Positions 2,900 through 50,913 of a stretch of 64,000 nucleotides of DNA are shown here, piece by piece. The stretch is taken from positions 2,695,501 through 2,759,500 of the forward strand of contig CALYLW010000011.1 in the NCBI GenBank assembly GCA_944989445.1, in the 5' to 3' direction. The DNA comes from Ampullaceana balthica. Its lineage: Eukaryota; Mollusca; Gastropoda; Lymnaeidae. Every line of letters begins with the position of its first letter. Position 1 is the stretch's first letter. Both the position numbers and the translations under genes were made by a program. The notes beneath the pieces are model-generated. The model was not told the DNA's origin, did no database searches, and saw nothing but the letters and a program-made list of their open reading frames with translations.

Positions 2900-3190
2900 A
2901 AATACAACAGATCCAGCTAGCTGCTCATGTAGCAGCCCATACTACATACAACAGTTTCAACTAGCTGCTCATGTAGTAGCCCATACTACATACAACAGTT
3001 CCAGCTAGCTGCTCATGTAGTAGCCCATACTACATACAACAGTTCCAGCTAGCTGCTCATGTAGCAGCCCATACTACATACAACAGTTTCAACTAGCTGC
3101 TCATGTAGTAGCCCATACTACATACAACAGTTCCAGCTAGCTGCTCATGTAGCAGCATATACCGCATAAAACAGATCCAGCTAGCTGACA
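2900..3190. repeat. 44-bp tandem repeat, about 6 copies
   Basis: Units share CTAGCTGCTCATGTAG and CCCATACTACATACAAC. Inner copies are nearly identical and differ mainly at TTCAACT/TCCAGCT and GTAGTAG/GTAGCAG. The outer units are more diverged. Confidence 0.9.
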
Positions 3191-3314
3191 TCTAGTTGTC
3201 TGGGCTAGATTTTCTGTTATTCAAATAAACGTATAACTTATACATATTTTTAATGTCATTCCGATACATTTCTAAAAATTGTCAAATTGTCAATTGCATG
3301 TTTAACCATAAAAT

Positions 3315-3480
3315 ACAAGATACATAAACGAATTATGTGATAAAAACAATAAATTAAAGCTTTATTAACAGGCTAAAACACAAGTAAACGTTTCGGCTAA
3401 TGCCTTCATCAGTAAAAATAAATAAACACATGTATTTAAATTAAATTTACATTATATAAATACTTACTATCCCAAGGGAA
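3315..3480 (-). mobile_element. Hammerhead-ribozyme-bearing retroelement remnant, copy 1
   Basis: This stretch is homologous, in the same order, to 17685-17860 and in part to 41975-42053: an ATACAA-ATACA end, an ACAATA...AAGCTTTATT block, then the hammerhead core at 3386-3413. On the minus strand the ribozyme comes first and the ATTTTGTAT-like end last. Hammerheads in such a context are known from Penelope-like element pseudo-LTRs and from retrozymes. No coding part is present, so which of these it derives from is open. Confidence 0.6.
3381..3416 (-). ncRNA. Candidate type I hammerhead ribozyme
   Basis: On the minus strand the conserved core is complete: CTGATGA at 3412-3406, stem II GGC-ATTA-GCC, GAAA at 3394-3391, then ACGT as a minimal self-complementary helix III and T at 3387 as the expected cleavage-site nucleotide. 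One extra A sits between CTGATGA and stem II. Helix I is weak (two clear pairs, TA with TA, then mismatches), so activity is uncertain. The very short helix III matches ribozymes that are thought to act as dimers in retroelements. Confidence 0.65.
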
Positions 3481-3898
3481 AATGATAATTAAGTAATGCT
3501 TAAAAACACAGTAAAGGTTGGGCCAGACTATCAAATGCTCGCGCGAGCATTTGATCAAACGCACTATTTTATTGGCGAATGCAGATGTAATAGAAGTAAA
3601 CATTAATCACGTGACTTGACTTTACAGCTGATCTTAATTTTAATGGCTGCCACTTTCTTCGATTCTAGTCTAATTATTATTTATCAGCTCTTCTAAATCG
3701 TAATGAAAACAAGGATAATACGCTAATATTCACAATGAAAACAAATCCTCAGCATACCAAATGGTCTTTAAAATCTAATAATATCTACGCGACGTCTTCA
3801 CTTTAAAGGACAAAATTTGAATCGAACAAATACTCTGATCATACTTCGTGACATAATAATAATAGTAATAGTGCTACTAGGCTACTAGTAATTCTACC

Positions 3899-7549: not shown

Positions 7550-8429
7550 TAAGCTTAGGCGTAGGCCTTAGCCTTAGGCTGAACAAAATTTGATTAACAA
7601 AGTATTGAAATATAATTTAGAGTTATAGTTATAGATCTAGACTCTTGGCAAGCTTTTTATTTTTTCTTGTGTTTATGATCAAGGAGGGGCAAAATAATTT
7701 TTTAAACATACCTTCATCTATCTTATAACATCATTATTAATTATTAGTTCTATTTCATAGTTTCGAAATAACGAATTTTTTTTGCGTAATTTAAATTTCT
7801 ACGAACGATGGTAGACTCCTTAGCCACAGTAGTAGATAGTATGACTATTTAAACATATTAACTCATTTTTAAACATGAGCCATAGTTATACTCATTCTAC
7901 ACATTCATTTGCATATTTTGAATTTAAAGTTGAAGTCTTTATAATATTATTATTTTATTATTTATTTTCATTCTTTTAATTTTAAAAAATCTCTGTTTTT
8001 AAAAGCCTAATTTAAATAAAATGCATATCTACTTCGTAATAAATCGTATATTGTTGTTGTTTTGACATTTTTTAAATAATAATGATTTGATAAAAATTTG
8101 GTTGATCACGAGCAATTTTATTAAATTAATAGCACATCGTAGTCAACATAAGCAACTCTCCGATGATGAACTTTGAACTTCAATTTGTAATAATTTACCA
8201 TGTGATATGGAGGTTGCGTAATAATACAAAAATATTTATAGTGCGTGTGTTTGATCAAATGCTTGATCAAATGCTCGATGGCATTTGATAGTGTGGCCCA
8301 ACCTTAACGCAAAGAAGAAAGGTGGACACAATTACTAAACAAAAACAAAGAATAGAAGAAGAGAAAGTAAGTATCAAAAGTTTCAGTTAAAACCACAACT
8401 GGAAAAAATATTTAACCAATAAACGCCGG

Positions 8430-11230: not shown

Positions 11231-12007
11231 TTAACCCACACATACGCACATAATTCTTTTTTGAATAACTTTTCTAAAACCTTTTGTATGCATGGAGTAC
11301 ACAAAAAAGTTAACTGCCGAATTGGCCACGCCAAACATGGAGAAAACGTAGACTATCTTTGGCTCAACCTGGTACGTTTGGGAAATGAGGACACAAGCCA
11401 TACATGGTGTCCAGCAGATAACAAACAGGCCAAACACGATCAACATTTGCTTCAGCCATTTGAAGGAAGCGACTTTTGATGCTCCTGCCGCTTGACTTAT
11501 TTTTAACGGATGTTGTCGCACAGTAGGTTTGGTATTTAAGTTATTTACACTTTGCTGTTGTACCGATGAATTTTCAGAATTGGCTTGTAGTCGTGAAGGG
11601 GACCCATTATAAAACCCAGCCCTTGATTCAATATTGGTGAAACGTTCGTTTGCATCGTGGCGCATGCTTCCAGATGCTTCAAAGATGTCGACGTAAATTA
11701 AGTATTTATTGAATTGATGATTTACCGGCTCGTTCATTAATACTAGTCTCCCTGGTTGAAAACCGATGTCTTCTTGCTGTTTTGCGCTGAAGAAGCGACT
11801 CATCGCCATGTTGTTATCTACAACTGTTTTTTTCGACAAAATGGAATCGACTTGAACGCGTCTCTGATGTTTCCTGTCGTGGTGTTTCTTGGCTGTTTTA
11901 GCAATCAGGCCGTAGGTTAGGCTGATGACAGCACACAACATAAAAAAACACAGGGGATAGAAGCCTCTGACATATTTTCTTTGCAGTGTGTTGTACGGGT
12001 TGCAGCC
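11231..12007 (-). CDS. Class A GPCR A, exon 4 (ECL2 to C-terminus, residues 177-434)
   Basis: Terminal exon of the receptor that starts at 17228. It begins in phase 0 after a TTCTACTTCAG acceptor. C178 is the expected ECL2 disulphide partner of C104. TM5 covers about residues 190-213. A long third intracellular loop of roughly 145 residues follows, rich in basic, Ser and Asn residues. TM6 carries the CWTP signature (374-377) and TM7 ends in ANSAVNFFVY, so the family motif NPxxY is NFFVY here (409-413), with Pro7.50 replaced by Phe. A helix-8-like segment (TKGFRKVIQKRI) and a Cys-containing tail close the protein; stop at 11231-11233. Role: plasma-membrane receptor presumed to signal through a G protein, ligand unknown. 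Confidence 0.88.
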   Translation of the reverse strand, partial: GCNPYNTLQRKYVRGFYPLCFFMLCAVISLTYGLIAKTAKKHHDRKHQRRVQVDSILSKKTVVDNNMAMSRFFSAKQQEDIGFQPGRLVLMNEPVNHQFNKYLIYVDIFEASGSMRHDANERFTNIESRAGFYNGSPSRLQANSENSSVQQQSVNNLNTKPTVRQHPLKISQAAGASKVASFKWLKQMLIVFGLFVICWTPCMACVLISQTYQVEPKIVYVFSMFGVANSAVNFFVYSMHTKGFRKVIQKRIMCVCVG

Positions 12008-12297
12008 CTGAAGTAGAACGATTTTCAAAAGTAAACAAATTTTACAATCCTGAAGTCTAGTACTTTGATGCATAAGGTATCGGTTCGTGGTTATTTTTAC
12101 AATGGATAAAATCAGAAGTTCGATAATTAAATACAATGTAAAGACAGCAATCTATAGTAAAGTTATAAAAGATGTACTTTTTTCTTTCTATACATTCAGT
12201 TTTAAATACGAAACAAACAGGGAAACATCCTCCCAAAGACAGCGATGATGTTTATTTCAATATTTGTAAGAAATACGTGTTAGACAAATGAGCTTAC

Positions 12298-12516
12298 TTC
12301 AGACTGTCTTTGTGAGAATGCATACGCCGCTGTAAACCCGTGAGTGGAAGCGAAGAACCATTGCAGACAAATGCTAACATTAACCCTGGTAGATGTTACA
12401 AGGCGTCTGTAGGTGAAGGGGTGAATGATATACAAGTACTGGTCCAGCGCCACGGTCAGCATGATGAACATACTTATGGTGATGCTTGAGTAGAGAACAG
12501 CAACCACATACTGGCA
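12298..12516 (-). CDS. Class A GPCR A, exon 3 (TM3, ICL2, TM4; residues 104-176)
   Basis: Phase-0 exon of 73 codons between a TTTACTTTCAG acceptor and a GTAAGC donor. It opens with C104, the conserved Cys3.25. Counting from it, the position 3.32 residue is Leu, so the Asp used by aminergic receptors is absent. The DRY motif is DQY (128-130): the codon is CAG, read directly from the sequence, so Arg3.50 is lost. IIHPF follows as in many receptors of the class, and W156 is W4.50. The intron to exon 4 is 290 nt. Confidence 0.9.
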
Positions 12517-13675
12517 CTGAAAGTAAAGGGGGCGTCCTTTTATATGAAGCACACTGTTTCCTCTGTAAGGTCCGTTGGTTCGTGTGCAAAGTTAGTGTCT
12601 TTTTGTGTGTGCTAAATGATAACCCCTCAAAGAAACATGCATCAATTAAAAGGACTATATAATATAATTTATGAGATTTAAAATAAATTCCATCAAATAA
12701 AGTAACAATACTTAATTCAATTATAATTAGACTTTTTTTTCTAATACCGATATTTATCATATCAAGCAACTAAGTGCAAACACATCCACTGGTCACTAAT
12801 AATTTCTGGGGGTACTCAGTCGTCAGTCTTACGAGACCCAGCTTTTATAGACATCGTTATGGTTGATTTTATGCCGATTATTCCAAAATAATTTAATCCT
12901 CGTAAGCATTATTAAGTTTAAATCATCGAGCCTCTTTGTTCATTCCTTTATAAATAAGAGTTCATTTTGCTGATACCATGCTCACAATCCGTGCTTGACG
13001 CAAGAATGTTGCACAACTATACAACGAATGGAATGCCGCAGAAATTTGTATAATTGAGAACAAATCGAAACAACTCGTCAAAAACCTGCATCAACCCAAA
13101 GTTCTTATTTTCTGCAAGCAAAAACTTTAAGTAAAGATACCCATCAATAATGCAAATGTATTAATAGCTTTCAGAAAATGCCTTGCATTTAAAAATTATT
13201 TCTGTAAGTTGATTGGACAAAATTAAAACTTGACCTGTCGACCAATGCTGATACCTCAAACTTTCGGCATGCACTGCACTCAAATAATTCTTGGACGGGA
13301 CTCAAGATTTCATCATGAAAAGAGCAGCTTAAAACTATGGGTCTCTGGTCTCTGGTTTCAAATTATATTTATTGACAGGATCATTATCAGCTCTTGTAAG
13401 TGTCTCAACGATTATTGTAAAGCTAAGTGCCCTGAAAGCCACCTGAATTCATGCAATGGCTGTAAGACTACGGGATTACTATTAAACTCCTTAATAGTTT
13501 AGTGAACTGTGTGCTTTCAGTGAGTGTTCTAAGAAATTTTTCAAAGACATGTTATGGCAACCATGCTTAAATGTTCACGATGGTCAGCGTAATGTTTCAC
13601 AGTTGATGTGTAATATTTCTGCGAAGACTTGAAGCAACTCCATTATTCTTGCCTCATGGCATAAAATCGTGGATA
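12517..13675. other. GPCR A intron 2, left part
   Basis: Intron sequence between the TM3 and TM2 exons. AT-rich, no element recognised. Confidence 0.5.
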
Positions 13676-17228: not shown

Positions 17229-17684
17229 TATTGTGGCACACGAATATAATAATCAAAAGACACCATTAAAATTAAGTTATGACATACATTTATTGTTTCT
17301 TTAACAACTGTCCGTGATGTCAAAATAATTATACTATATGGAAGGCTGAGCTTTGATGATTCATAAATAAAAATCAGGTATAATATCTGTCTGCGATGAC
17401 GACTGCATGCAAACAAATCAAACTAAATTCCAAGTCCATGTGCTTGCAGACCATGTCGTAACCCCTGGCAACGTCAAAAGCGTGGGAAAGGAAACAACCA
17501 ATCACCAGGCCAGAGACCACAGGTCGCGGTACTGCACAACGTCATTCTAAATCTTTGCCTAAATAGCAGTATTTAGAGATAACCAGTGGCGTTAAACGAA
17601 TTGTTGTCATCAACTGTGGTTAACGTGGTGTCACTCATTGTGGTTATCTGAGGGTGTAGCCCTCATCTCTCCTGACTAGTCAAA
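17229..17684. promoter_or_regulatory. Upstream region of GPCR A
   Basis: Sequence 5' of the GPCR start on the minus strand. No core promoter element stands out; the 5' UTR limits cannot be set from sequence alone. Confidence 0.25.
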
Positions 17685-17860
17685 TACAAAATACACAAGT
17701 TGTGTAATGAAAGCAATAAAGTTAAGATTTATTATTGAACTAATACAACATTAAACGTTTCAGCTAATGACTTCGTCAGTACAAATAACATAGAGTACTT
17801 ACTTAAGTATTAAAATTATATTTAAACTAGTGTAGTGTATTACCCGTCAAAAGTGACAGA
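17685..17860 (-). mobile_element. Hammerhead-ribozyme-bearing retroelement remnant, copy 2
   Basis: Shares with 3315-3480 the blocks ATACAAAATACACAA, GCAATAAAGTTAAG..TTTATT, AACTAATACAAC and the ribozyme core, in the same order and orientation. It diverges beyond the ribozyme but keeps TACTTACTTAA. Confidence 0.6.
17747..17784 (-). ncRNA. Candidate type I hammerhead ribozyme, variant core
   Basis: Minus strand: CTGACGA (17779-17773; position 7 is C, a tolerated variant), stem II AGT-CATTA-GCT with a wobble pair, GAAA (17761-17758), ACGT helix III, T at 17754 as cleavage-site nucleotide, helix I starting TA/TA as in copy 1. The core and the flanking TA pairs are shared with the 3.4-kb copy while stem II differs. 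Confidence 0.55.
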
Positions 17861-18649
17861 AATTTTCAAAATAAATATATTTTAGCTGATTTAAGCATAG
17901 TTTTTGTAATTGTCCCTTTGCCTGATTCCCCTACAACCTAGCACCCCCCCCCCATCCCGGCCTCCGGTTTAACGACCTTATCCACTATGGCAACCATAAT
18001 ATTTATAAAATCCGCATACACAGTTCAAAACTGATATCAAAATTAAAGTAGTGATTTGAAAAATGTACAGTTTTAAAATAAAATCAATGGTCCTTGATGG
18101 GAATGTGTCTCCAACTTTCTCAAGGTATTACAATAATAGTCTAAGTCTAAGTCTAATAACTGAGGTCAAAGTGATTGTTTTTCATTATTGATAACATCGT
18201 TAGTTGCACCCGGACGTTATATTTCATTTCTATAAAGATTGAGTGATTGAGACGTCATTAATTATTAATTTGATGAGAGATGACATTATCTTACCGAGAA
18301 TTATGTAGCTCTCTCTTCGAATAATTGAAGGAAACAAAACACGCAATAAATATCAGCGGGTAAACTGTTCAATGTACTTACCACGCTCGAGGATAAAGTG
18401 GATTTTGGAACTTGACAGAATGTAAATAGAAGGGAGGGGGCGGGATATGATTGGTATTGCTGCTCATTTACTTGAATTTTGTGTTAATGCGCACGGGGAC
18501 GGGATGTCAAATAATAATAATAAAACCATCTATCGCACAGGACTTATTTGAAAGATATGATCACGGCTCTAACCCTAAGTTGTATGGTATTGGGCTTTTC
18601 CTTGTATATTCATGATATATAGTCATCAAAATTTACTGGTAGATTTATA
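17861..18649. other. Intergenic, nothing recognised
   Basis: AT-rich sequence with a C-run near 17945. No coding or mobile-element signal I can support. Confidence 0.4.
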
Positions 18650-19180
18650 CATTGGCCTGCAAAATCCATTGGCCTGACTGAAACATCCATTGTCCTGACT
18701 AAATAGTTATATGTTTTACAAACAGGGTATGTATGGGCCTGACAAAACGTCAAAGAACATATTGTATTGTTGTATTGTATTGTTGTATTGTATTGTTGTA
18801 TTGTATTGTTGTATTGTATTGTTGTATTGTATTGTTGTATTGTATTGTTGTATTGTATATTGTTGTATTGTATTGTTGTATTGTATTGTTGTATTGTATT
18901 GTTGTATTGTATTGACTGAAGAAACAGCTATTGGCCTGACCACAACATTCATTGGCTTAACTGAAACATCCATTGACCTGACTTAAAACATCTCTTTGCC
19001 TGACTGAAATATCCAATGGCCAGACGAAACATCCATTGCGCTGACTGAAATATCCATCGGCCTGACTGAAATATCCATGAGACTTACTGAAACATCCATT
19101 GACCTGACTTTTAAAAAAAACATCCATTAGCCTGACTGAAATATCCATTAGCCTGACTGAAATATCCATGTTCATTGTTA
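18650..19180. repeat. Degenerate 21-24 bp repeat with an embedded 13-bp array
   Basis: CATTGGCCTGACTGAAACATC-like units recur on both sides of a regular 13-bp array (TTGTATTGTATTG, about 11 copies, 18765-18915). The outer units vary in length and sequence; the inner array is almost uniform, with one 3-bp indel. Confidence 0.9.
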
Positions 19181-19445
19181 CTGTCTTTGGCTGTGGAGTT
19201 CCAGTTAGACAGAATTTTCGTAAGACTCATGAAGTTTTTTGTTTTTTTTGGTTTTTTTTAAAATGTTAAATGACGCACATTTTCCACTATTTAATTTCGT
19301 TGAACTACTTTTGCAAGCTAGTTTAAATCGAATAAATTATTTTAAAATAATCTTGACTTTGATTTATTTAAAGAACGCCTTGAATTTAGTCTTAAAGGTC
19401 AGTTAGGGTTTGACTATAGACCACGGGGTCATCTAGAAAAGAACC

Positions 19446-19754
19446 AGGTAAATGCATAAAATAAAAAAAGGGTATTAGTAGGCCTGACAGGACGTAACAC
19501 AACAGCGAACGTTTCGGCAAAGAGCCTTCTTCAACGGACAAATAGTACACAAATGAAACGAATAAAACGATGGATCTCTACTGGACTACTTGGATTTCAC
19601 CGCAGCTAAGTGTTTTTTTTTCTATTATTTCGTTTTATTCGTTTCATTTGTGTACTATTTGTCCGTTGAAGAAGGCTCTTTGCCGAAACGTTCGCTGTTG
19701 TGTTACGTCCTGTCAGGCCTACTAATACCCTGTTTTTATTTTATGCATTTACCT
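19446..19754. repeat. 309-bp hairpin: two 125-bp inverted arms, 59-bp spacer
   Basis: Arm 19446-19570 and arm 19630-19754 are reverse complements with one mismatch seen (AAAAAAAGGG against CTGTTTTTATT side). Each arm carries TTGAAGA, stem GGC-TCTTT-GCC and GAAACGTT, a hammerhead-like core with the first C replaced by T. This looks like two copies of one retroelement terminus in inverted orientation. The spacer contains CTACTTGGATTTCACCGC. Confidence 0.93.
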
Positions 19755-20275
19755 TTTTAAAAGCCTGATTGCAGTCTCACCCCCATTACTTTAGAAAAAA
19801 ACCAGCATGTTGCTAATGCTAATGCACTGAAACAGGCGGGAGAGATCCGTATAATATATTTGTATACTGGACGACACGTGTCCACCAAGGTCTCACAGGT
19901 AGACTTCATATTTTAATTAATTTGTCATTGGTTTAAAATAATTTAAACATTCACTTTTAAAATAGTTTTACAATGAATACTATATAATTTCATGAACTCT
20001 ATTATCCCAACTTTAGTCTTTTATGTATGCAATATTTCGTAAGTGTTGAAAATTGAAAAGCTTATATATTATATAGACATATATATAAATATTCAGAAAA
20101 TTATTAGTCACTTATTACTCTATTAAACGTGTTTTTAATTATCTTTTTTAAGTCTCATCTTCTCTATTAAAAATATCATTAAAAAGGTATATCTATAATT
20201 CTGTAATAAAAAGACGTAAAAAATCAGTAAGCTTCACTAATATGAGGCTAGTTATTGACAAACAAATACAAACGC
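19755..20275. other. Intergenic, nothing recognised
   Basis: AT-rich sequence between the hairpin and the 31-bp array, without supported features. Confidence 0.4.
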
Positions 20276-24928: not shown

Positions 24929-25785
24929 ATAGTCAAAAACTTTGTTTTTACGGGTTTGTTTTATTATTGTATTTTAGCCGCCATCTTTGTTGTCAACACG
25001 TGAAAAAGATGGCGGAAAAATAGTGCATAAAATGAAGAAAAAAGTTGAAAAAAAAGAAGTAAGAACTGAAATTAAAAATTAGACCACTAAACCTTTACCC
25101 TAAACCTATCCCGAAACCTAAAACCTATCCATAAACCTATCCATAATCCTAAAACCTATCCCTAAGCCTAAACCTAACCTTAAACCTAAAATGGGGATCT
25201 GTCAGGGGAAAACTATAAAATTTAAAAAAAAATATATATCAATTCATGAATTTAAAAAAATGAAGAGCAAAAAGTTCATCAATAGATTACATTCAATTAA
25301 ACGGCGAAAATCGAGTGACTAACTATAAAAATATCAATATGCAGGTCGTCCAATAGTATATGTCAATTGCGCTTCTCCCAAGTTCGCGTCGTATGAATAC
25401 ATAATTCCATTCCCGGAAGTACGCCTCGCTCTGCCATAACAAATTAGCCGAATAAACTTATTTTAGCTATTGAAATATTGTTATCGAAACATACATCATT
25501 TGAAAGATGTCCACAATGTGACCCTGCTTCTCCATTATTTCAGATATCTAATATTCCATTAACAACGACAGTCCTTGATTGAAGTATGGATCTTTGGAAG
25601 GTTTACCCATCACCGTCATCCACTGGTTAGTCTCGAAGCTGACTGGTCCACTCGATGTGTACAGTCATGGATGTCCACGTCACTGCTATGGTCATCGGCC
25701 TCCACGCGCAGTCCCACCTCCCACCGGGTTGGTCAAGTTTCGTGTTTGGAGTCGCTGGGGCCGCGCTGTACGCATTCTACGAAGT
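24929..25785. other. Intergenic; degenerate CCTAAA-type repeat at 25080-25195
   Basis: Contains about 15 irregular CCTAAAC/CCTATCC units (25080-25195), reminiscent of decayed telomere-like sequence but too variable to call. The remainder is unremarkable up to the start of the 29-bp array. Confidence 0.5.
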
Positions 25786-28700
25786 CTGGCCAAAGTAAGA
25801 CACCAATAGATGGTCTGGCCAAAGTAAGACACCAATAGATAGTCTGGCCAAAGTAAGACACCAATAGAATTTGGCCAAAGTAAGACACCAATAGAATTCG
25901 GCCAAAGTAAGACACCAATAGATAGTCTGGCCAGAGTAAGATACCAATAGAATCTGGCCAAAGTAAGACACCAATAGAATCTGGCCAAAGTAAGACACCA
26001 ATAGATAGTCTGGCCAAAGTAAGACACCAATAGAATTCGGCCAAAGTAATAGTCTGGCCAAAGTAAGACACACATAGATAGTCTGGCCAAAGTAAGACAC
26101 CAATAGATAGTTTGGCCAAAGTAAGACACCAAAAATAGTCTGGCCAAAGTAAGACACCAAAAATAGTCTGGCCAAAGTAAGACACCAACAGATAGTCTGG
26201 CCAAAGTAAGACACCAATAGATAGTCTGGCCAAAGTAAGACACCAACAGATAGTCTGGCCAAAGTAAGACACCAACAGATAGTCTGGCCAAAGTAAGACA
26301 CCAACAGATAGTCTGGCCAAAGTAAGACTCCAACAGATAGTCTGGCCAAAGTAAGACACCAATAGATAGTCTGGCCAAAGTAAGACACCAATAGATAGTC
26401 TGGCCAAAGTAAGACACCAACAGATAGTCTGGCCAAAGTAAGACACCAATAGATAGTCTGGCCAAAGTAAGACACCAACAGATAGTCTGGCCAAAGTAAG
26501 ACACCAACAGATAGTCTGGCCAAAGTAAGACACCAAAAAGATAGTCTGGCCAAAGTAAGACACCAACAGATAGTCTGGCCAAAGTAAGACACCAACAGAT
26601 AGTCTGGCCAAAGTAAGACACCAATAGATAGTCTGGCCAAAGTAAGACACCAACAGATAGTCTGGCCAAAGTAAGACACCAATAGATAGTCTGGCCAAAA
26701 AAAGACACCAACAGATAGTCTGGCCAAAGTAAGACACCAACAGATAGTCTGGCCAAAGTAAGACACCAATAGATAGTCTGGCCAAAGTAAGACACCAACA
26801 GATAGTCTGGCCAAAGTAAGACACCAATAGAATTCGGCCAAAGTAATAGTCTGGCCAAAGTAAGACACACATACATAGTCTGGCCAAAGTAATACACCAA
26901 TAGATAGTCTGGCCAAAGTAAGACACCAATAGATAGTCTGGCCAAAGTAAGACACCAACAGATAGTGTGGCCAAAGTAAGACACCAATAGATAGTCTGGC
27001 CAAAGTAAGACACCAATAGATAGTCTGGCCAAAGTAAGACACCAACAGATAGTCTGGCCAAAGTAAGACACCAACAGATAGTCTGGCCAAAGTAAGACAC
27101 CAACAGATAGTCTGGCCAAAGTAATACACCAATAGATAGTCTGGCCAAAAGTAAGACACCAATAGATAGTCTGGCCAAAGTAAGACACCAACAGATAGTC
27201 TGGCCAAAGTAAGACACCAACAGATAGTGTGGCCAAAGTAAGACACCAATAGATAGTCTGGCCAAAGTAAGACACCAATAGATAGTCTGGCCAAAGTAAG
27301 ACACCAACAGATAGTCTGGCCAAAGTAAGACACCAACAGATAGTCTGGCCAAAGTAAGACACCAACAGATAGTCTGGTCAAAGTAAGACACCAATAGATA
27401 GTCTGGCAAAAGTAAGACACCAATAGATAGTCTGGCCAAAGTAAGACACCAACAGATAGTCTGGCCAAAGTAAGACACCAACAGATAGTCTGGCCAAAGT
27501 AAGACACCAAAAAGATAGTCTGGCCAAAGTAAGACACCAACAGATAGTCTGGCCAAAGTAAGACACCAACAGATAGTCTGGCCAAAGTAAGACACCAATA
27601 GATAGTCTGGCCAAAGTAAGACACCAACAGATAGTCTGGCCAAAGTAAGACACCAATAGATAGTCTGGCCAAAAAAAGACACCAACAGATAGTCTGGCCA
27701 AAGTAAGACACCAACAGATAGTCTGGCCAAAGTAAGACACCAACAGATAGTCTGGCCAAAGTAAGACACCAATAGATAGTCTGGCCAAAGTAAGACACCA
27801 ACAGATAGTCTGGCCAAAGTAAGACACCAATAGAATTCGGCCAAAGTAATAGTCTGGCCAAAGTAAGACACACATACATAGTCTGGCCAAAGTAATACAC
27901 CAATAGATAGTCTGGCCAAAGTAAGACACCAATAGATAGTCTGGCCAAAGTAAGACACCAACAGATAGTCTGGCCAAAGTAAGACACCAACAGATAGTGT
28001 GGCCAAAGTAAGACACCAATAGATAGTCTGGCCAAAGTAAGACACCAATAGATAGTCTGGCCAAAGTAAGACACCAACAGATAGTCTGGCCAAAGTAAGA
28101 CACCAATAGATAGTCTGGCCAAAGTAAGACACCAACAGATAGTCTGGCCAAAGTAATACACCAATAGATAGTCTGGCCAAAGTAAGACACCAATAGATAG
28201 TCTGGCCAAAGTAAGACACCAACAGATAGTCTGGCCAAAGTAAGACACCAACAGATAGTGTGGCCAAAGTAAGACACCAATAGATAGTCTGGCCAAAGTA
28301 AGACACCAATAGATAGTCTGGCCAAAGTAAGACACCAACAGATAGTCTGGCCAAAGTAAGACACCAACAGATAGTCTGGCCAAAGTAAGACACCAACAGA
28401 TAGTCTGGTCAAAGTAAGACACCAATAGATAGTCTGGCAAAAGTAAGACACCAATAGATAGTCTGGCCAAAGTAAGACACCAACAGATAGTCTGGCCAAA
28501 GTAAGACACCAATAGATAGTCTGGCCAAAGTAAGACACCAACAGATAGTCTGGCCAAAGTAAGACACCAACAGATAGTCTGGCCAAAGTAAGACACCAAC
28601 AGATAGTCTGGCCAAAGTAAGACACCAACAGATAGTCTGGCCAAAGTAAGACACCAATAGATAGTCTGGCCAAAGTAAGACACACATAGATAGTCTGGCC

Positions 28701-31700
28701 AAAGTAAGACACCAACAGATAGTCTGGCCAAAGTAAGACACCAATAGATAGTCTGGCCAAAGAAAGACACCAACAGATAGTCTGGCCAAAGTAAGACACC
28801 AACAGATAGTCTGGCCAAAGTAAGACACCAATAGATAGTCTGGCCAAAGTAAGACACCAACAGATAGTCTGGCCAAAGTAAGACACCAATAGATAGTCTG
28901 GCCAAAGTAAGACACCAACAGATAGTCTGGCCAAAGTAAGACACCAACAGATAGTCTGGCCAAAGTAAGACACCAATAGATAGTCTGGCCAAAGTAAGAC
29001 ACCAATAGATAGTCTGGCCAAAGTAAGACACCAACAGATAGTCTGGCCAAAGTAAGACACCAATAGATAGTCTGTCCAAAGTAAGACACCAACAGATAGT
29101 CTGGCCAAAGTAAGACACCAATAGATAGTCTGGCCAAAGTAAGACACCAATAGATAGTCTGGCCAAAGTAAGACACCAACAGATAGTCTGGCCAAAGTAA
29201 GACACCAATAGATAGTCTGGCCAAAGTAAGACACCAACAGATAGTCTGGCCAAAGTAAGACACCAATAGATAGTCTGGCCAAAGTAAGACACCAACAGAT
29301 AGTCTGGCCAAAGTAAGACACCAACAGATAGTCTGGCCAAAGTAAGACACCAACAGATAGTCTGGCCAAAGTAAGACACCAACAGATAGTCTGGCCAAAG
29401 TAAGACACCAACAGATAGTCTGGCCAAAGTAAGACACCAAAGTCTGGCAAAGTAGACACCAAAGATAGTCTGGCCAAAGTAAGACACCAACAGATAGTCT
29501 GGCCAAAGTAAGACACCAATAGATAGTCTGGCCAAAGTAAGACACCAACAGATAGTCTGGCCAAAGTAAGACACCAACAGATAGTCTGGCCAAAGTAAGA
29601 CACCAACAGATAGTCTGGCCAAAGTAAGACACCAACAGATAGTCTGGCCAAAGTAAGACACCAACAGATAGTCTGGCCAAAGTAAGACACCAACAGATAG
29701 TCTGGCCAAAGTAAGACACCAACAGATAGTCTGGCCAAAGTAAGACACCAACAGATAGTCTGGCCAAAGTAAGACACCAACAGATAGTCTGGCCAAAGTA
29801 AGACACCAACAGATAGTCTGGCCAAAGTAAGACACCAACAGATAGTCTGGCCAAAGTAAGACACCAACAGATAGTCTGGCCAAAGTAAGACACCAATAGA
29901 TAGTCTGGCCAAAGTAAGACACCAATAGATAGTCTGGCCAAAGTAAGACACCAATAGATAGTCTGGCCAAAGTAAGACACCAATAGATAGTCTGGCCAAA
30001 GTAAGACACCAATAGATAGTCTGGCCAAAGTAAGACACCAATAGATAGTCTGGCCAAAGTAAGACACCAATAGATAGTCTGGCCAAAGTAAGACACCAAT
30101 AGATAGTCTGGCCAAAGTAAGACACCAATAGATAGTCTGGCCAAAGTAAGACACCAATAGATAGTCTGGCCAAAGTAAGACACCAATAGATAGTCTGGCC
30201 AAAGTAAGACACCAATAGATAGTCTGGCCAAAGTAAGACACCAATAGATAGTCTGGCCAAAGTAAGACACCAATAGATAGTCTGGCCAAAGTAAGACACC
30301 AATAGATAGTCTGGCCAAAGTAAGACACCAATAGATAGTCTGGCCAAAGTAAGACACCAATAGATAGTCTGGCCAAAGTAAGACACCAATAGATAGTCTG
30401 GCCAAAGTAAGACACCAATAGATAGTCTGGCCAAAGTAAGACACCAACAGATAGTCTGGCCAAAGTAAGACACCAATAGATAGTCTGGCCAAAGTAAGAC
30501 ACCAACAGATAGTCTGGCCAAAGTAAGACACCAATAGATAGTCTGGCCAAAGTAAGACACCAATAGATAGTCTGGCCAAAGTAAGACACCAACAGATAGT
30601 CTGGCCAAAGTAAGACACCAATAGATAGTCTGGCCAAAGTAAGACACCAACAGATAGTCTGGCCAAAGTAAGACACCAATAGATAGTCTGGCCAAAGTAA
30701 GACACCAACAGATAGTCTGGCCAAAGTAAGACACCAACAGATAGTCTGGCCAAAGTAAGACACCAACAGATAGTCTGGCCAAAGTAAGACACCAACAGAT
30801 AGTCTGGCCAAAGTAAGACACCAACAGATAGTCTGGCCAAAGTAAGACACCAACAGATAGTCTGGCCAAAGTAAGACACCAACAGATAGTCTGGCCAAAG
30901 TAAGACACCAACAGATAGTCTGGCCAAAGTAAGACACCAACAGATAGTCTGGCCAAAGTAAGACACCAATAGATAGTCTGGCCAAAGTAAGACACCAACA
31001 GATAGTCTGGCCAAAGTAAGACACCAATAGATAGTCTGGCCAAAGTAAGACACCAACAGATAGTCTGGCCAAAGTAAGACACCAACAGATAGTCTGGCCA
31101 AAGTAAGACACCAATAGATAGTCTGGCCAAAGTAAGACACCAACAGATAGTCTGGCCAAAGTAAGACACCAATAGATAGTCTGGCCAAAGTAAGACACCA
31201 ATAGATAGTCTGGCCAAAGTAAGACACCAACAGATAGTCTGGCCAAAGTAAGACACCAATAGATAGTCTGGCCAAAGTAAGACACCAATAGATAGTCTGG
31301 CCAAAGTAAGACACCAATAGATAGTCTGGCCAAAGTAAGACACCAATAGATAGTCTGGCCAAAGTAAGACACCAATAGATAGTCTGGCCAAAGTAAGACA
31401 CCAATAGATAGTCTGGCCAAAGTAAGACACCAATAGATAGTCTGGCCAAAGTAAGACACCAATAGATAGTCTGGCCAAAGTAAGACACCAATAGATAGTC
31501 TGGCCAAAGTAAGACACCAATAGATAGTCTGGCCAAAGTAAGACACCAACAGATAGTCTGGCCAAAGTAAGACACCAATAGATAGTCTGGCCAAAGTAAG
31601 ACACCAATAGATAGTCTGGCCAAAGTAAGACACCAATAGATAGTCTGGCCAAAGTAAGACACCAATAGATAGTCTGGCCAAAGTAAGACACCAATAGATA

Positions 31701-32791
31701 GTCTGGCCAAAGTAAGACACCAATAGATAGTCTGGCCAAAGTAAGACACCAATAGATAGTCTGGCCAAAGTAAGACACCAATAGATAGTCTGGCCAAAGT
31801 AAGATACCAATAGATAGTCTGGCCAAAGTAAGACACCAATAGATAGTCTGGCCAAAGTAAGACACCAATAGATAGTCTGGCCAAAGTAAGACACCAATAG
31901 ATAGTCGGGCCAAAGTAAGACACCAATAGATAGTCTGGCCAAAGTAAGACACCAATAGATAGTCTGGCCAAAGTAAGACACCAATAGATAGTCTGGCCAA
32001 AGTAAGACACCAATAGATAGTCTGGCCAAAGTAAGACACCAATAGATAGTCTGGCCAAAGTAAGACACCAATAGATAGTCTGGCCAAAGTAAGATACCAA
32101 TAGATAGTCTGGCCAAAGTAAGACACCAATAGATAGTCTGGCCAAAGTAAGACACCAATAGATAGTCTGGCCAAAGTAAGACACCAACAGATAGTCTGGC
32201 CAAAGTAAGACACACATAGATAGTCTGGCCAAAGTAAGACACCAATAGATAGTCTGGCCAAAGTAAGACACCAATAGATAGTCTGGCCAAAGTAAGACAC
32301 CAATAGATAGTCTGGCCAAAGTAAGACACCAATAGATAGTCTGGCCAAAGTAAGACACCAATAGATAGTCTGGCCAAAGTAAGACACCAATAGATAGTCT
32401 GGCCAAAGTAAGACACCAATAGATAGTCTGGCCAAAGTAAGACACCAACAGATAGTCTGGCCAAAGTAAGACACACATAGATAGTCTGGCCAAAGTAAGA
32501 CACCAATAGATAGTCTGGCCAAAGTAAGACACCAATAGATAGTCTGGCCAAAGTAAGACACCAATAGATAGTCTGGCCAAAGTAAGACACCAATAGATAG
32601 TCTGGCCAAAGTAAGACACCAATAGATAGTCTGGCCAAAGTAAGACACCAATAGATAGTCTGGCCAAAGTAAGACACCAATAGATAGTCTGGCCAAAGTA
32701 AGACACCAATAGATAGTCTGGCCAAAGTAAGACACCAATAGATAGTCTGGCCAAAGTAAGACACCATAGATAGTCTGGCCAAAGTAAGATA
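25786..32791. repeat. 7-kb minisatellite, 29-bp unit, about 240 copies
   Basis: Unit AGATAGTCTGGCCAAAGTAAG plus ACACCAAT/C. The main variant is a T or C at one position (CAATAGAT against CAACAGAT), arranged in runs. The left kilobase has truncated units (AATAGAATTCGGCC) and point variants; the right 4 kb is much more uniform. A block carrying AATTCGGCC-AAAGTAATAG, ACACATACATAG and GTAATACACC recurs about 1.0 kb apart (26831 and 27834). The unit has no stop in any minus-strand frame and 29 is not a multiple of 3, so three long overlapping minus frames (up to 2345 codons) arise automatically; none should be taken as a protein. Confidence 0.98.
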
Positions 32792-33124: not shown

Positions 33125-34170
33125 ATTAAAAGATACCACCCGCAGCGTAGCTTACGCCGCAGACTTGCTCATCATAGATATTGCAAAGAACGAGGGAGGA
33201 GGTGAGATAACGGACACAAACAGCAACACGAAGTAATGGAGAGAAAAAAAAGATAGCGAGTAAACTTGGAGAAATGTACAAAGCGGTTGTTGCTACCTGC
33301 CCCCCTCCACCCTTTACTAACATTCCTTGCCAACCATACACTGTGATTTGCCGAGCCTAGGGTTAGTAATGTTCGCAAAAAATGGGGAAAAGAACGAGCC
33401 GAAAAACATTTAATTATATTTTTTTAATTATTCCCTCTGGGGCTTGAACCCAGGACTTTCCGCGTGCAAGGCGGACGTGATAACCACTACACTACGAATC
33501 ATATGTTACTCTGAGAAGAAACAATGCAAGTGAACGCAGGAAGCATTGTTGCCACCCCCCCCCACCTTTTTGTCATCCTACTACGCTTGCCAACTCTGAT
33601 CTTGCGACCCCAGCGAGGGTCATTCGTCATGCTCATTTGCACATGCCGTTTAAGTGAATTATACATACTAGACGCCCCGCGGCGTAGCATACGCCGCAGA
33701 CTTGCTCGTGGAGAGTGCAAAGAAAGTTGAGAAAGAACGGACACAAACTACAGCACGAATAAATCAAAACAACGCGAGTGAACGTCGGTTGAACTGCCAA
33801 CTCATTGTTTATTTTCGAGACATTTGCAGGCGAAATTCGGTACAACCCTAACTTCTATGAAGTCAGTTGTAAAACGATAATCGGTTTAAAATCGGAGTTA
33901 CATAATCGATAATCGGTTTTTCAAAACACGCCATTAACAACCCTAAATATGTTAACCAGTACACTACGAATTTCACGTTTTCTGTGAAGGAACAATGCAA
34001 GTGAAACGCAAGGGCCATTGTTGGTCACCCCTCCACTACCTTCGCTTGTCAACCGTTAACTGTGTTTAGTTGACCCGAGCGAGGGTCATTCGTCATGCTC
34101 TGTTGCACATACTTGCAGCCTGCTTGCCTCGCATGGTCCCATGAAGAGAATTATATATATATAGAAAGAT
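33125..34170. repeat. Three related repeat blocks with shared modules
   Basis: Module TACGCCGCAGACTTGCTC occurs at about 33153-33170 and 33689-33706, each preceded by a palindromic GCGGCGTA-GCA-TACGCCGC or a near copy. Module GAGGGTCATTCGTCATGCTC occurs at 33615-33634 and 34080-34099. Module AACAATGCAAGTGAA occurs at 33521 and 33990. Blocks near 33.43 and 33.95 kb also share the tRNA-like end ACACTACGAAT. This looks like a composite, tRNA-associated repeat family in three partial copies. Confidence 0.65.
33430..33499 (-). tRNA. tRNA-like sequence, probably a pseudogene or SINE part
   Basis: Minus strand: GTGTAGTGGTTATCAC (D-arm with box A), anticodon arm CCGC-CTTGCAC-GCGG with TGC in the anticodon position (alanine by code), and T-arm CTGGG-TTCAAGC-CCCAG. 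The body resembles tRNA-Val rather than tRNA-Ala, and the acceptor stem pairs at only about four of seven positions. Association with a repeated module argues against a working gene. Confidence 0.5.
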
Positions 34171-37089: not shown

Positions 37090-37740
37090 TTTAAGTATGA
37101 TGAGACAAAATACGAATTGAAACGTTTCAGCAAACAACTTCACCTACAACTACAAGTTACCAGTACAAGACAGAATATCAAGTTTCTATTTCAGCACAGA
37201 ATAGCAAGCTATATTTTCAACACAGATTATCAATTTTCTTTTACAACACAGAATATCAAGTTAATATTTCAACACAGACGATCAAGTTTTTATTACAACT
37301 CAGAAAATCAAAAGTACAACAGAAAACATCAAGTTACAACTATAATACAACATATCAAGTTACAACTATAATACAACATATCAAGTTACTAGTACAACAC
37401 ATAAGATCCACTTACTAGTACAGCACATAAGATCCACTTACTAGTACAACACATAAGATCCACTTACTAGTACAACACATAAGATCCACTTACTAGTACA
37501 ACACATAAGATCCACTTACTAGTACAGCACATAAGATCCACTTACTAGTACAACACATAAGATCCACTTACTAGTACAACACATAAGATCCACTTACTAG
37601 TACAGCACATAAGATCCACTTACTAGTACAACACATAAGATCCACTTACTAGTACAACACTTAAGATCCACTTACTATAGTACAACACATAAGATCCACT
37701 TACTAGTACAACACATAAGATCCACTTTCTAGTACAACAC
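37090..37740. repeat. Degenerate 25-30 bp repeats leading into a 26-bp array (about 14 copies)
   Basis: 37385-37740: CTAGTACAACACATAAGATC plus CACTTA, regular. 37140-37385: related but diverged units (TATCAAGTTACAACTATAAT, ACACAGAATATCAAGTTT). At 37118 a TTGAAACGTTTCAGC...CTTCACC stretch faintly resembles the ribozyme element on the minus strand. Confidence 0.9.
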
Positions 37741-41864: not shown

Positions 41865-41974
41865 TCTTAAATCATTCACTCATTGTGGAACGAAGATAAT
41901 TTTTTATCAACTTCAGTTTGGAGAAGCTCCTTTCACAACTAGCGACACTGATAACAATAATTGTTATCAAAATT

Positions 41975-42053
41975 CTTAGAATACAAAATACACAAACAAA
42001 TTGTGCAATGCAAACAATATATTTAAGCTTTATTTATAAACTAATACAACAAG
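41975..42053 (-). mobile_element. Fragment of the hammerhead-bearing retroelement, ribozyme missing
   Basis: AATACAAAATACACAA...ACAATATATTTAAGCTTTATT...AACTAATACAAC matches the 3' portion (minus sense) of 17685-17760. It stops where the ribozyme core would begin. It lies within the hAT transposase sequence, so it inserted there. Confidence 0.65.
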
Positions 42054-44023
42054 CGGACCTTTTCCTCCATTTTCCCAACGCAATGCCTCTTTGTGTAGTA
42101 TAGGTACAGCCACAAAACCTGGATCATTTTTCTTTCATTATGGAACTTTTCTTTATCAATGTCAATAAAATCATTTATTTGACATTCAATTTCTTCACTT
42201 AGTATGTTACATGGGATTATACACGAATATTTTCTGACATGGACATGCAACTGATCAAAGAGTTCTTTTAATTCCTTTATAATTCGATCCATGGATTAAA
42301 ACATTTATCGTTGTACTTCATGTTCTAAAGATAGGACCACGTCTTGTGAATTTTCCCCACTCACATGTTTTTCCTTTCTAACTTGGCGTTTCCTTTATTT
42401 TCTACAAAATAAATAAACGATTCTACAACTTTAACTTCGCCAACATCAATAACTACGTATCTTTTAATTTGATTAGTTTAATATTTGTGGGAAATATCTG
42501 GAGAGCTGTCAAATATCATACAAAAGTTTTTAGCTTGCTTTAATTGGTCCATTATTGTTTTTCTCGCTGCACCTCTCAATAGGTCTATGAATTCATTTTG
42601 AATCATTTTCCACAAATAGGAGACACTATATTTATTACCCATCTTAATTTGTACTAAATGTTCACATAATACTGGGTCGTACTTGGCCAACAAGTCCAAA
42701 AGCTCTAGAAAATGTCCTATATTTCCAATTGAATTGATGTCTTCCTCATGAATACTTTCACGATGACCTCTCAACGCCAAATTTTGTTTTGCTAAGAATT
42801 TAATTATATCAAGTATTGTGAGAATTTCCTTTCATTTTTTCTTATTTCTTTATCAATATTCTGTTGTAGATTATCAAAAGATGCACCATGTCCAATTCTT
42901 ATTTCTAATTCCTTCCATTGGGAAAATGATCGAATCTGCAGTAGACTCAACTCGTGTTGACTTATTCAGTAGACTCAACTCGTGTTGACTTATTCAGTAC
43001 ACACAACTCGTGTTGACTTATTTTGAGATTAAATTTCCACTATTTTTTAAAACTATTTTCCGTGTTACAATTTTATTGGAAAAATCATCTAACAGTTGAC
43101 AGCAAAAAAAAATATTTAATTTTCTTCAATGGTGTATACTCCATCCACGATCTTAACAAATTTTCACCATTTTCACCAAAGAAAACAATCGCGATTCATC
43201 TTTCTTGTGAAAAATCGTAATAATTTTCACTAAAATAGACTAATTCAAACCATCTAAACATTACTTTAATAGGATATGCATAACATTTTTAGTGAAGAAA
43301 CGTATTTTAATGAAACACATTTTGTTTGTGCTACTTTAATGAAAAAAACAAACAAAAAGAAAAACAAAAAATTAATTTTTAATAAATTACCTTAGAATAA
43401 TTTTCTGAAACTTGCACAGTAATATAAATTACTACTTGCAAGTTAAACACAATATTTGAACCACAATGCCATGTGGGTACTTTTTCGCGTATGATTCTGT
43501 GCATGTCGAAAATCCACGCAATAACTGTCGCGGCGATATTAATAGTAAATTCGGTCCAGCAGTGATGTGTTCATTGTGTTGTTTTCTTATAAAAAGCGTC
43601 ATCTGTGATGTATACCGCTTAATTTTCAAAACAAATCGATACAATTTTTAAACGATTTTAAATTTCTTAACGGTTATGCATTAGTTATAACAAACAGTAT
43701 GTAATAAAAAATTGTCTTGAGAATCCGTTAATTACGACTCGAAAGTACGAATATTTTATTTTCACCCGGGTTTTCCTCTTTCAAAAGAAAAAGGGCGGTT
43801 GTCCGAAAGGGCTGTACTTTTCAAATGCCCCCAAATGCCGCCCCCAAATTGTGTGCCGCCCGGGGCGGACCGCCCCCACCGCCCCCCCTAGCTACGCCAC
43901 TGCTCTCATTCACTGTTCAATGGCTCCACGAATGTTGTCTTTGTTTGATATTTATTGCTCTATAACCACACTAAATTTTGATATTTATTTATTCTATTCT
44001 TGTGTTTTATTTACATGTAACAG

Positions 44024-48938: not shown

Positions 48939-50897
48939 CTAAACTAAACACATATTCTGTAGGCCTGAGACTAATCTCTTAAGGCCTTGGCTAGAACCTG
49001 GGCAATCTGCTCCATCTGCTGAGCATTGCCATACAACATTGTCTTTACATGGGACTCGCCCGCCTCCCTCACCCCCCCGGCTATATCGAGCGCCGGGCAA
49101 GACGTCACCAGGTGTTCGACTGTCTCAGGGGCTTGGCTGCAATGACGGCAGTTCGAGTCCCTGTTGTGGTCTAGCCTGTGAAAGTAAGAGTTGGTTGGGC
49201 AATGTTCGGTCCTCATCTGAGTCACCAAGCCCTGGTGTTTGCGACTCAGGTTCCACCACTGGTCTGAACGGCTTGGCCTGGGCATGTTAGCGAATACCCC
49301 TCTGGCTGTTGTGTTGTCAGCCCACTCCTGGTACCACTTATTCCGAAAGTGGTCCTTTAGCCAGTTTTTTGCCCCGAGATAGGTGACTGGGGTCTCTGGT
49401 TGGGGCAGTGCTGCGCCTGCTTTGGCCAGGGAGTCTGCTTTTTCGTTGCCATTAACATTCACGTGGCTCGGGATCCACTGCACTGTTACCTTACCTCCAA
49501 GTCTTTCGAGTCTACCCACGTCTTCCAAGATGACGTCAACCAAGTGGGTACTACGATTCTCACTAGCCAGGACTTCGAGGGCTGATCTCGAGTCACAAAA
49601 CAGTACCGTGTCGAAACCAAATATTTCCGACCCCTGCAGTGTCTGGTGCACACTTTCCAGGGCCCTGTGTATAGCCTCGAGCTCCGCATCGTAGTTCGAT
49701 GCCATAGTCCCACAGGGACCTAGAAGTTCTTCTCTTGGTGGCCCTCCTATTGGGTATAAGATGAGCGCACCGTATCCTGCAATTCCTTCACTCGAACTGG
49801 CAGACCCATCCGTGAACACTTTCACTTGGGTTCCCGCGAACCCTTCTATCGTCTCAAGGGCAGCCGCTTTCTGTACATGTTCAGGGCTGCGTTTCGTCAC
49901 CGCTGTGTCAGTCAGAGACAAACGTATTTCGGGACGTGAGCATTCCGCATAGGGCGGTTTGAGTGGGACACTTATAATTTGTCTTCTATTTTGTGGGGGT
50001 TTGACGTTCCTATCAAGTTCCGTTACTTGATGCATAAATGAGGAACGTTTCAAACACCCACGTCCGCCCCAGTTGTGCTGCATCTGGTAGCAGGGCTCCC
50101 TATAGTCTAACCTGCGATACCTCTCTGCAGTCGTTATGATTGCCTTGTCCCTACGAATATCGAGCGGTTCTACGTTTGCAATGACTTCCACAGCAGCTGT
50201 GGGTGTCGTTCTATATGCGCCACAGATAAATCTTAAGGCCTGGTTCTGGATTCGACCCAGTTTTTCCAATGCCGTTTTGCTGGCAAAGGCTTGGACGGGC
50301 ATGCTGTAATCCATAATCGACCTCACACTACCCAGAAAGAGAGCTCTGAGTGTACTTGCTCCAGCGCCCCAGTTCGTGCATGCAAGCTTTTTCACCAGGT
50401 TGAGCTTGGCGGTAGCCTGGGAGCACAGGTCTTGTACAAAGTTATGCATTTGCACCTTTTGATCCAGTTTGACTCCCAGATATACCGGTTGTTTGTCCCA
50501 TTTGAGCGCCACATCGTTTATTTTGAGCACTATCTCCTCTTTGAGAATGGTTCTGCCGTTAGTGAAAAGGGAATAGACCGTCTTCTCGGTATTGATTTCC
50601 ATCTGCCACCTCTGCATGTACCTACTGATATACGAAAGGTCTCGCTGTAGTAGCTGTTGCAGTCGGTTGGCATCTTTACCGGTGCTCCAGATGACCAAGT
50701 CATCTGCATACATAGCCGCGCTGGATTGCAACATTCCAGGGAGGTCGTTGATGAAAGCCAAGAACAGTGTGCAACTGAGTGCTGACCCTTGGGGCAGCCC
50801 CTGTTGCAGCGTTCTCTTACTGGAGGTTTCACTGCCATAAATTGTTTGGATCGTCCGGTTTGTAAGGAAACCTTGGATCCACCTGTACATGTTGTAC
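48939..50897 (-). mobile_element. 5'-truncated I-type non-LTR retrotransposon with 16-bp target duplication
   Basis: ATTTTCTTATACTAAA is duplicated exactly at 48923-48938 and 50898-50913. On the minus strand the element starts inside the reverse transcriptase and ends in a short (GTTTA)n tail abutting the duplication. An intact frame and perfect duplications point to a recent insertion. The N-terminal part of the RT and the expected upstream endonuclease are absent. Confidence 0.93.
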
Positions 50898-50899
50898 AT
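48971..50899 (-). CDS. Reverse transcriptase-RNase H polyprotein, 5'-truncated (642 codons)
   Basis: Open from 50899 to the stop at 48971. The RT palm is present from LPQGSALSCTLF (35-46) to the catalytic AMYADD (Y64-A-D-D67). A thumb/connection region follows. An RNase H domain has its acidic residues in place: D364 (FTDGSAS), E406 (DAELEAI), D436 (FCDSRSA) and D489 (NEKADSLA, after the IPSHV motif). A Cys/His cluster (C-R-H-C ... H-L ... C near 585-605) closes the protein as in I/Ingi/Nimb-type elements. The ATG at 50899 borrows two bases from the target duplication, so it is not the native start. Endonuclease and RT fingers are lacking, so it cannot move by itself. Confidence 0.92.
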   Translation of the reverse strand: MYNMYRWIQGFLTNRTIQTIYGSETSSKRTLQQGLPQGSALSCTLFLAFINDLPGMLQSSAAMYADDLVIWSTGKDANRLQQLLQRDLSYISRYMQRWQMEINTEKTVYSLFTNGRTILKEEIVLKINDVALKWDKQPVYLGVKLDQKVQMHNFVQDLCSQATAKLNLVKKLACTNWGAGASTLRALFLGSVRSIMDYSMPVQAFASKTALEKLGRIQNQALRFICGAYRTTPTAAVEVIANVEPLDIRRDKAIITTAERYRRLDYREPCYQMQHNWGGRGCLKRSSFMHQVTELDRNVKPPQNRRQIISVPLKPPYAECSRPEIRLSLTDTAVTKRSPEHVQKAAALETIEGFAGTQVKVFTDGSASSSEGIAGYGALILYPIGGPPREELLGPCGTMASNYDAELEAIHRALESVHQTLQGSEIFGFDTVLFCDSRSALEVLASENRSTHLVDVILEDVGRLERLGGKVTVQWIPSHVNVNGNEKADSLAKAGAALPQPETPVTYLGAKNWLKDHFRNKWYQEWADNTTARGVFANMPRPSRSDQWWNLSRKHQGLVTQMRTEHCPTNSYFHRLDHNRDSNCRHCSQAPETVEHLVTSCPALDIAGGVREAGESHVKTMLYGNAQQMEQIAQVLAKALRD

Positions 50900-50913
50900 T
50901 TTCTTATACTAAA

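Follow-up and report, generated by a model that had tools for sequence, protein, structure and literature searches.

The window, that is, the whole stretch of 64,000 nucleotides of Ampullaceana balthica DNA that was analysed (contig CALYLW010000011.1, positions 2,695,501 to 2,759,500), carries a minimal hammerhead core, c1, on the minus strand at 3386-3412. Read from 3412 to 3386, its letters are CTGATGA-A-GGC-ATTA-GCC-GAAACGTTT, and the cut is predicted 3' of H17, between 3387 and 3386. The order and spacing of these motifs, along with the cut site, had been described in the same way by an earlier, sequence-only reading; the unpaired A between A9 and stem II was absent from that description. 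The core had also been called 'complete', which is right for order and spacing but not for helix III, since ACGU leaves no loop and the helix is impossible within a single c1 molecule. The sequence elements of a hammerhead (CUGANGA, helix II, GAAA, A15.1-U16.1 and an NUH cut site) are all present, with the extra A after A9; three helices do not form in one molecule, and c1 has only two proximal helix I pairs. The c1 family differs from the published minimal hammerheads of Penelope-like elements (PLEs) in its helix II loop ATTA and perhaps in the unpaired A after A9.

Around the core lies the 5'-truncated, decayed end of a PLE (about 3310-3520, minus strand). Its extent is given by the alignment of 3311-3453 with a second copy, c2, and by alignment with a relative elsewhere in the genome (L230), which carries it to about 3520; the element ORF is absent. 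Near its 3' end, a small hairpin, ACATAA/TTATGT (3322-3338, minus strand), is weakly supported: one of its seven pairs is compensatory among three copies, and 175 of 500 shuffles did as well. It may be compared with the AC-rich stem loop at which a lizard PLE begins reverse transcription. Beside c1, at 3529-3556, there is a near-perfect palindrome, TATCAAATGCTCGCGCGAGCATTTGATC, in a stretch that partly matches 8263-8308.

Copies of the repeat in the window

The copy c2 (17682-17822, minus strand) is 73% identical to 3311-3453 and has its core at 17753-17779 (CTGACGAAGTCATTAGCTGAAACGTTT). Its helix I has decayed, and helix II is found only in an alternative register. Between c1 and c2, identity is 26/29 in the core and 79/115 in the remainder (Fisher p 0.033). 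A third copy, c3 (41977-42056, minus strand), consists of the tail only; it begins just downstream of the expected place of the core and shares its 3' end (TTTTGTATT) with the c1/c2 repeat. All three copies have the short 3' end. It sits among traces of a hAT-type transposase: 41875-42831 (minus strand) matches the hAT dimerisation domain and, below the cut-off, DUF4371, with c3 between or within them. A possible, badly decayed core at 37110-37155 (minus strand) obtained 16.1 bits (E 0.24) with a covariance model of the four window cores. Its alignment score was 34 against c2, where the best of 300 shuffles reached 24, and 20 against c1, no better than its shuffles.

The other two cores belong to a second family and form a head-to-head insertion. 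One arm, d1 (19448-19566, minus strand), has the core TTGAAGAAGGCTCTTTGCCGAAACGT at 19534-19509 and no tail; the other, d2 (19630-19791, plus strand), has its core at 19666-19691 and the tail TTTAAAAGCCTGATTGCAGTCTCA. The inner boundaries of both arms are approximate. The insertion is flanked on the left by TAGAAAAGAACCAG (19434-19447, plus strand) and on the right by TAGAAAAAAACCAG (19792-19805, plus strand), which are identical at 13 of 14 positions. It thus resembles the other pairs described below, since only d2 has a tail and the target duplication, 14 bp long, contains a single mismatch. Both cores, at 19534 on the minus strand and 19666 on the plus strand, read TTGAAGA-A-GGC-TCTTT-GCC-GAAACGTT, so that position 3 is U, not C. 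They keep the two innermost helix I pairs, helix II and GAAACGUU. A miRNA-like Rfam match at 19489-19711 (80.9 bits, gathering score 200) is the d1/d2 inverted repeat itself.

Elsewhere in the window, an ORF of 645 aa at 48974-50908 (minus strand) carries RVT_1, RNase_H and zf-RVT and belongs to a LINE-type element. Coding pieces of a 7tm_1 receptor, probably a host gene, lie at 11234-12151 and 12283-12591 (minus strand). A tandem array of about 240 units of 29 bp (25782-32789) gives a mechanical ORF of 2,345 aa. At 33429-33499 (minus strand), Rfam reports a tRNA match of 43.9 bits, where ARAGORN makes no call.

Genomic abundance and Penelope-like identity

The core of c1 is genuine, and chance is excluded. 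The idea that it is an accidental match in AT-rich DNA draws on its AT-rich surroundings and on the missing Rfam hit, and its probability is negligible. A search for the 27-base core with up to three mismatches succeeded twice in the window and never in 100 shuffles, and a generic minimal core with paired stem II, likewise found twice in the window, was absent from 10 Mb of first-order simulated sequence. In the genome (1,097,344,711 bases in 3,363 contigs), the pattern CTGATGAN{4,16}GAAACGT was found 2,801 times (1,382 + 1,419) against 34 (18 + 16) for its reversed control, and it is this comparison that refutes a chance origin. By eye, CTGATGAAGGCATTAGCCGAAACGT, identical to the c1 core at 3386-3412, occurs in 70 of 100 listed places out of the 2,801. 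Neighbours within 6 kb of these 100 places, also counted by eye, include 15 head-to-head, one tail-to-tail and one same-direction case.

A search with the Rfam hammerhead covariance models had been proposed beforehand as a check on c1, with a missing hit as part of its refutation. The outcome was negative: there was no hammerhead match at the gathering score in the whole window, and none at E values up to 10 in 3101-3700 or 17600-19800. Apparently, Rfam does not cover the minimal variant of the c1 type. Viral contigs contained no exact match to the core pattern. At least 120 degenerate matches were found in viral contigs, and 73 matches in prokaryote contigs; these were rejected as family members, as there was no likeness outside the core among the matches listed. 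On 23 of 193 such loci, the covariance model of the four window cores scored at best 24.3 bits (E 0.0044, at L158), against 60.9-67.1 bits on its own four source cores.

The identity of the repeat comes from the related loci. For these, 60 stretches were fetched around listed places, 20 of them chosen for their varying cores, together with 8 loci from the genome search. Among 23 separate places (L194-L221), an ORF of at least 120 aa on the same strand ends 189-199 nt upstream of the core in 11 (16 arms, by eye) and is missing in 12. RVT_1 and/or GIY-YIG was detected in five of seven scanned ORFs, with one of the three RVT_1 matches below the cut-off. The longest, of 609 aa, has 776 protein relatives; the best, 892 aa long, matches 89% of it at 99% identity and carries RVT_1 and GIY-YIG above the cut-off. 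Among the 120 relatives listed, the named ones include the gastropods Arion, Biomphalaria, Physella, Bradybaena, Littorina and Nucella, as well as a coral and a sea urchin. The c1 repeat is assigned to the PLEs; an ORF with reverse transcriptase and GIY-YIG domains adjoins it in related loci. In the window, a Pfam scan of 30 ORFs, selected from 336 stop-to-stop ORFs of at least 50 aa, gave no GIY-YIG and a single reverse transcriptase, of LINE type.

The anatomy of the insertions agrees with this assignment. In 30 distinct flanks, which represent the commonest, nearly identical subfamily of the c1 family, two forms of the 3' end occur, a short one (...TTTTGTATTTTA) and one that runs about 40 bp further (TTTAAAAGCTTTATTGCAG...); the long form is present in 13 by eye. 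An optional tail of 30-40 bp in some copies is one mark of a PLE. Another is the inverted, head-to-head arrangement of pseudo-LTRs, which is seen in 14 pairs and in d1/d2; c1 is without a partner arm. The long tail is on exactly one arm in all 14 pairs, and direct repeats of 9-17 bp stand at the expected insertion ends in 12 of 14 as a raw count. A search at the ends of the L209 pair found no direct repeat, and in the L214 pair the best match lies within a flanking repeat; L208, with three cores, was excluded from the pair analysis. The ORFs, the tail, the inverted copies and the target duplications at related loci together bear out the Penelope-like character already proposed for this hammerhead. 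The copy c1 is a member of an already known and abundant kind of animal element, for which minimal hammerheads have been published.

The second family is similar in build. The pattern TTGAAGAAGGCN{3,7}GCCGAAACGT gave 708 + 721 genomic matches, including the pair in the window, and its reversed form none. There are, therefore, at least 1,429 copies with U3; the pattern demanded U3 and is silent on copies with C3. Around the listed places of this family, 16 head-to-head and three same-direction neighbours were counted by eye within 6 kb. In the two d-family ORFs scanned, GIY-YIG reached 22.9 bits in L263 (cut-off 22.6), while in L265 both GIY-YIG (19.3 bits) and RVT_1 (18.6 bits) were below the cut-off. 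From the c to the d family, the innermost helix I pairs both change on both sides (U-A/A-U to C-G/G-C), a double change that involves three distinct sequences only and was equalled by 54 of 500 shuffles.

Conservation, folding and competing explanations

Conservation was followed in 49 distinct copies. Two of them are c1 and c2; the other 47 come from the fetched loci, which gave 85 matches, those with short flanks or a different helix II spacing being left out. The conservation of the core is partly built in, because the copies were found by the core pattern. H17 is U in 30 copies, C in 18, A in one and never G. The three proximal helix I pairs are present in 46, 47 and 40 copies; a register shifted by three does almost equally well (45, 40 and 41), because the columns hardly vary. 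At position 2.3, G is found in 43 of the 49 copies and U in c1. The third helix I pair is lost in both window copies, owing to this U in c1 and an A at 1.3 in c2. The weakness of helix I, already noted for c1 by the sequence-only reading, is thus real, and it looks like decay of that copy.

A fold of the monomer had also been suggested as a check, and the minimum-energy folds of single copies do not contain the hammerhead. The fixed set of helices is unable to form in 16 of the 49 copies; for the remaining 33, the cost of the hammerhead fold is 2.0-12.7 kcal/mol, with c1 at 7.4. Such a cost in single copies is expected, as helix III is absent. It is concluded that c1 is most likely a dead, 5'-truncated fragment. 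It is probably inactive and unlikely to cleave itself or to give rise to circular RNA.

The explanation that accounts best for these observations, and in which we place high confidence, is that c1 represents the minimal type I hammerhead carried by an abundant PLE, situated in its terminal pseudo-LTR, in a 5'-truncated and most likely dead copy. In such an element, the hammerhead lies in the terminal (pseudo-LTR) region, and the RT/GIY-YIG ORF ends about 190 nt before it. In the better copies, helix I (A-U, U-A, G-C) and helix II (GGC/GCC) form beside the core. Helix III, made from the palindromic ACGU, may arise when two RNA copies pair and not otherwise, or a protein of the element may stabilise the fold; for the better copies, dimer action via a putative ACGU-ACGU helix is possible. 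The cut would come after GUU or GUC. The two 3' ends would be explained by reverse transcription that starts at two sites, one about 75 and the other about 115 nt downstream from the core.

Two other explanations have to be weighed against this one. A non-LTR retrozyme, a small tandem repeat with a canonical type I hammerhead that forms circular RNA, would have the hammerhead core in common with c1. Retrozymes are also described alongside PLEs in mussels and other invertebrates in PMC7229834, and a few same-direction neighbours (one in the c family, three in the d family) occur within 6 kb among the places listed. Yet no tandem array listed in the window covers the core, helix III is missing, RT/GIY-YIG ORFs adjoin many members, and head-to-head neighbours number 15 and 16 in the two families among the same places. 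With c1 truncated as well, the retrozyme or circular-RNA reading proposed earlier finds no support, and it is considered very improbable.

A more serious contender, though still a tentative one, is that the hammerhead-like sequence is kept for some other role, such as binding of RNA by the element protein or priming, with cleavage being secondary. This is compatible with the identity of the repeat as a PLE. According to PMC11167929, hammerhead mutants of a lizard PLE insert normally in vitro, and its RNA cleaves only with protein. The U3 of the second family in at least 1,429 copies and the unfavourable single-copy folds point the same way. On the other side, H17 is never G and the pairs of helices I and II are mostly kept in the 49 copies, as a cleaving hammerhead needs, although something other than cleavage may account for the conservation of these columns.

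With the PLE hammerhead as the preferred explanation, the U3 core of the d family is the unusual part. Its presence in at least 1,429 copies makes it a family feature rather than the decay of one copy. As G8 stays while position 3 is U, the d core has a U-G wobble. The C3-G8 pair covaries to U3-A8 in some hammerheads, as stated in PMC3088659, and PMC7151607 mentions a core that combines U3 with an insertion of two bases. It is conceivable, if somewhat doubtful, that the d family has either a fixed U3-G8 hammerhead that still cleaves (e.g., with Mn2+ or a bound protein) or a PLE that multiplied with a crippled ribozyme. If the latter holds, hammerhead cleavage would be dispensable for the spread of PLEs, whose hammerheads have a role termed a mystery in a passage of PMC7761336. 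This genome holds a PLE family whose hammerhead core keeps the consensus and another whose core has a fixed change, each in more than 1,000 copies; such a natural comparison could show whether mobility depends on the PLE hammerhead. As for c1, it is one of the many copies of a very abundant element family rather than a special ribozyme locus.

Comparison with known systems

The metazoan retrozymes, as presented in PMC7229834, share the type I hammerhead core with c1 and differ in their tandem non-coding repeats, canonical helices and circular RNA. The core is also like the minimal PLE hammerheads of Cervera and De la Pena (2014) and Lunse et al. (2017), as summarised in PMC7761336 and PMC6155905. 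These minimal type I hammerheads are without helix III and dispersed in thousands, some of them in PLE pseudo-LTRs, and they may act as dimers.

For the anatomy of the insertion, published PLEs have inverted pseudo-LTRs, one of which carries a tail of 31 bp (PMC3846280). The Penelope elements of Adineta vaga in that paper similarly show head-to-head pseudo-LTRs, a tail on one arm and short target duplications; the host is another one, and the word 'hammerhead' is absent from the paper. Poseidon of Anolis carolinensis (PAc; PMC11167929) has its hammerhead at the start of the ORF, whereas in the loci read here it follows the ORF end. In PAc, reverse transcription starts at two internal sites downstream of the hammerhead, and its optional tail is attributed to these two starts. 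As in the present family, the PAc hammerhead is in the pseudo-LTR, the insertion ends tens of nucleotides downstream of it, and there are an optional tail and, near the end, an AC-rich stem loop.
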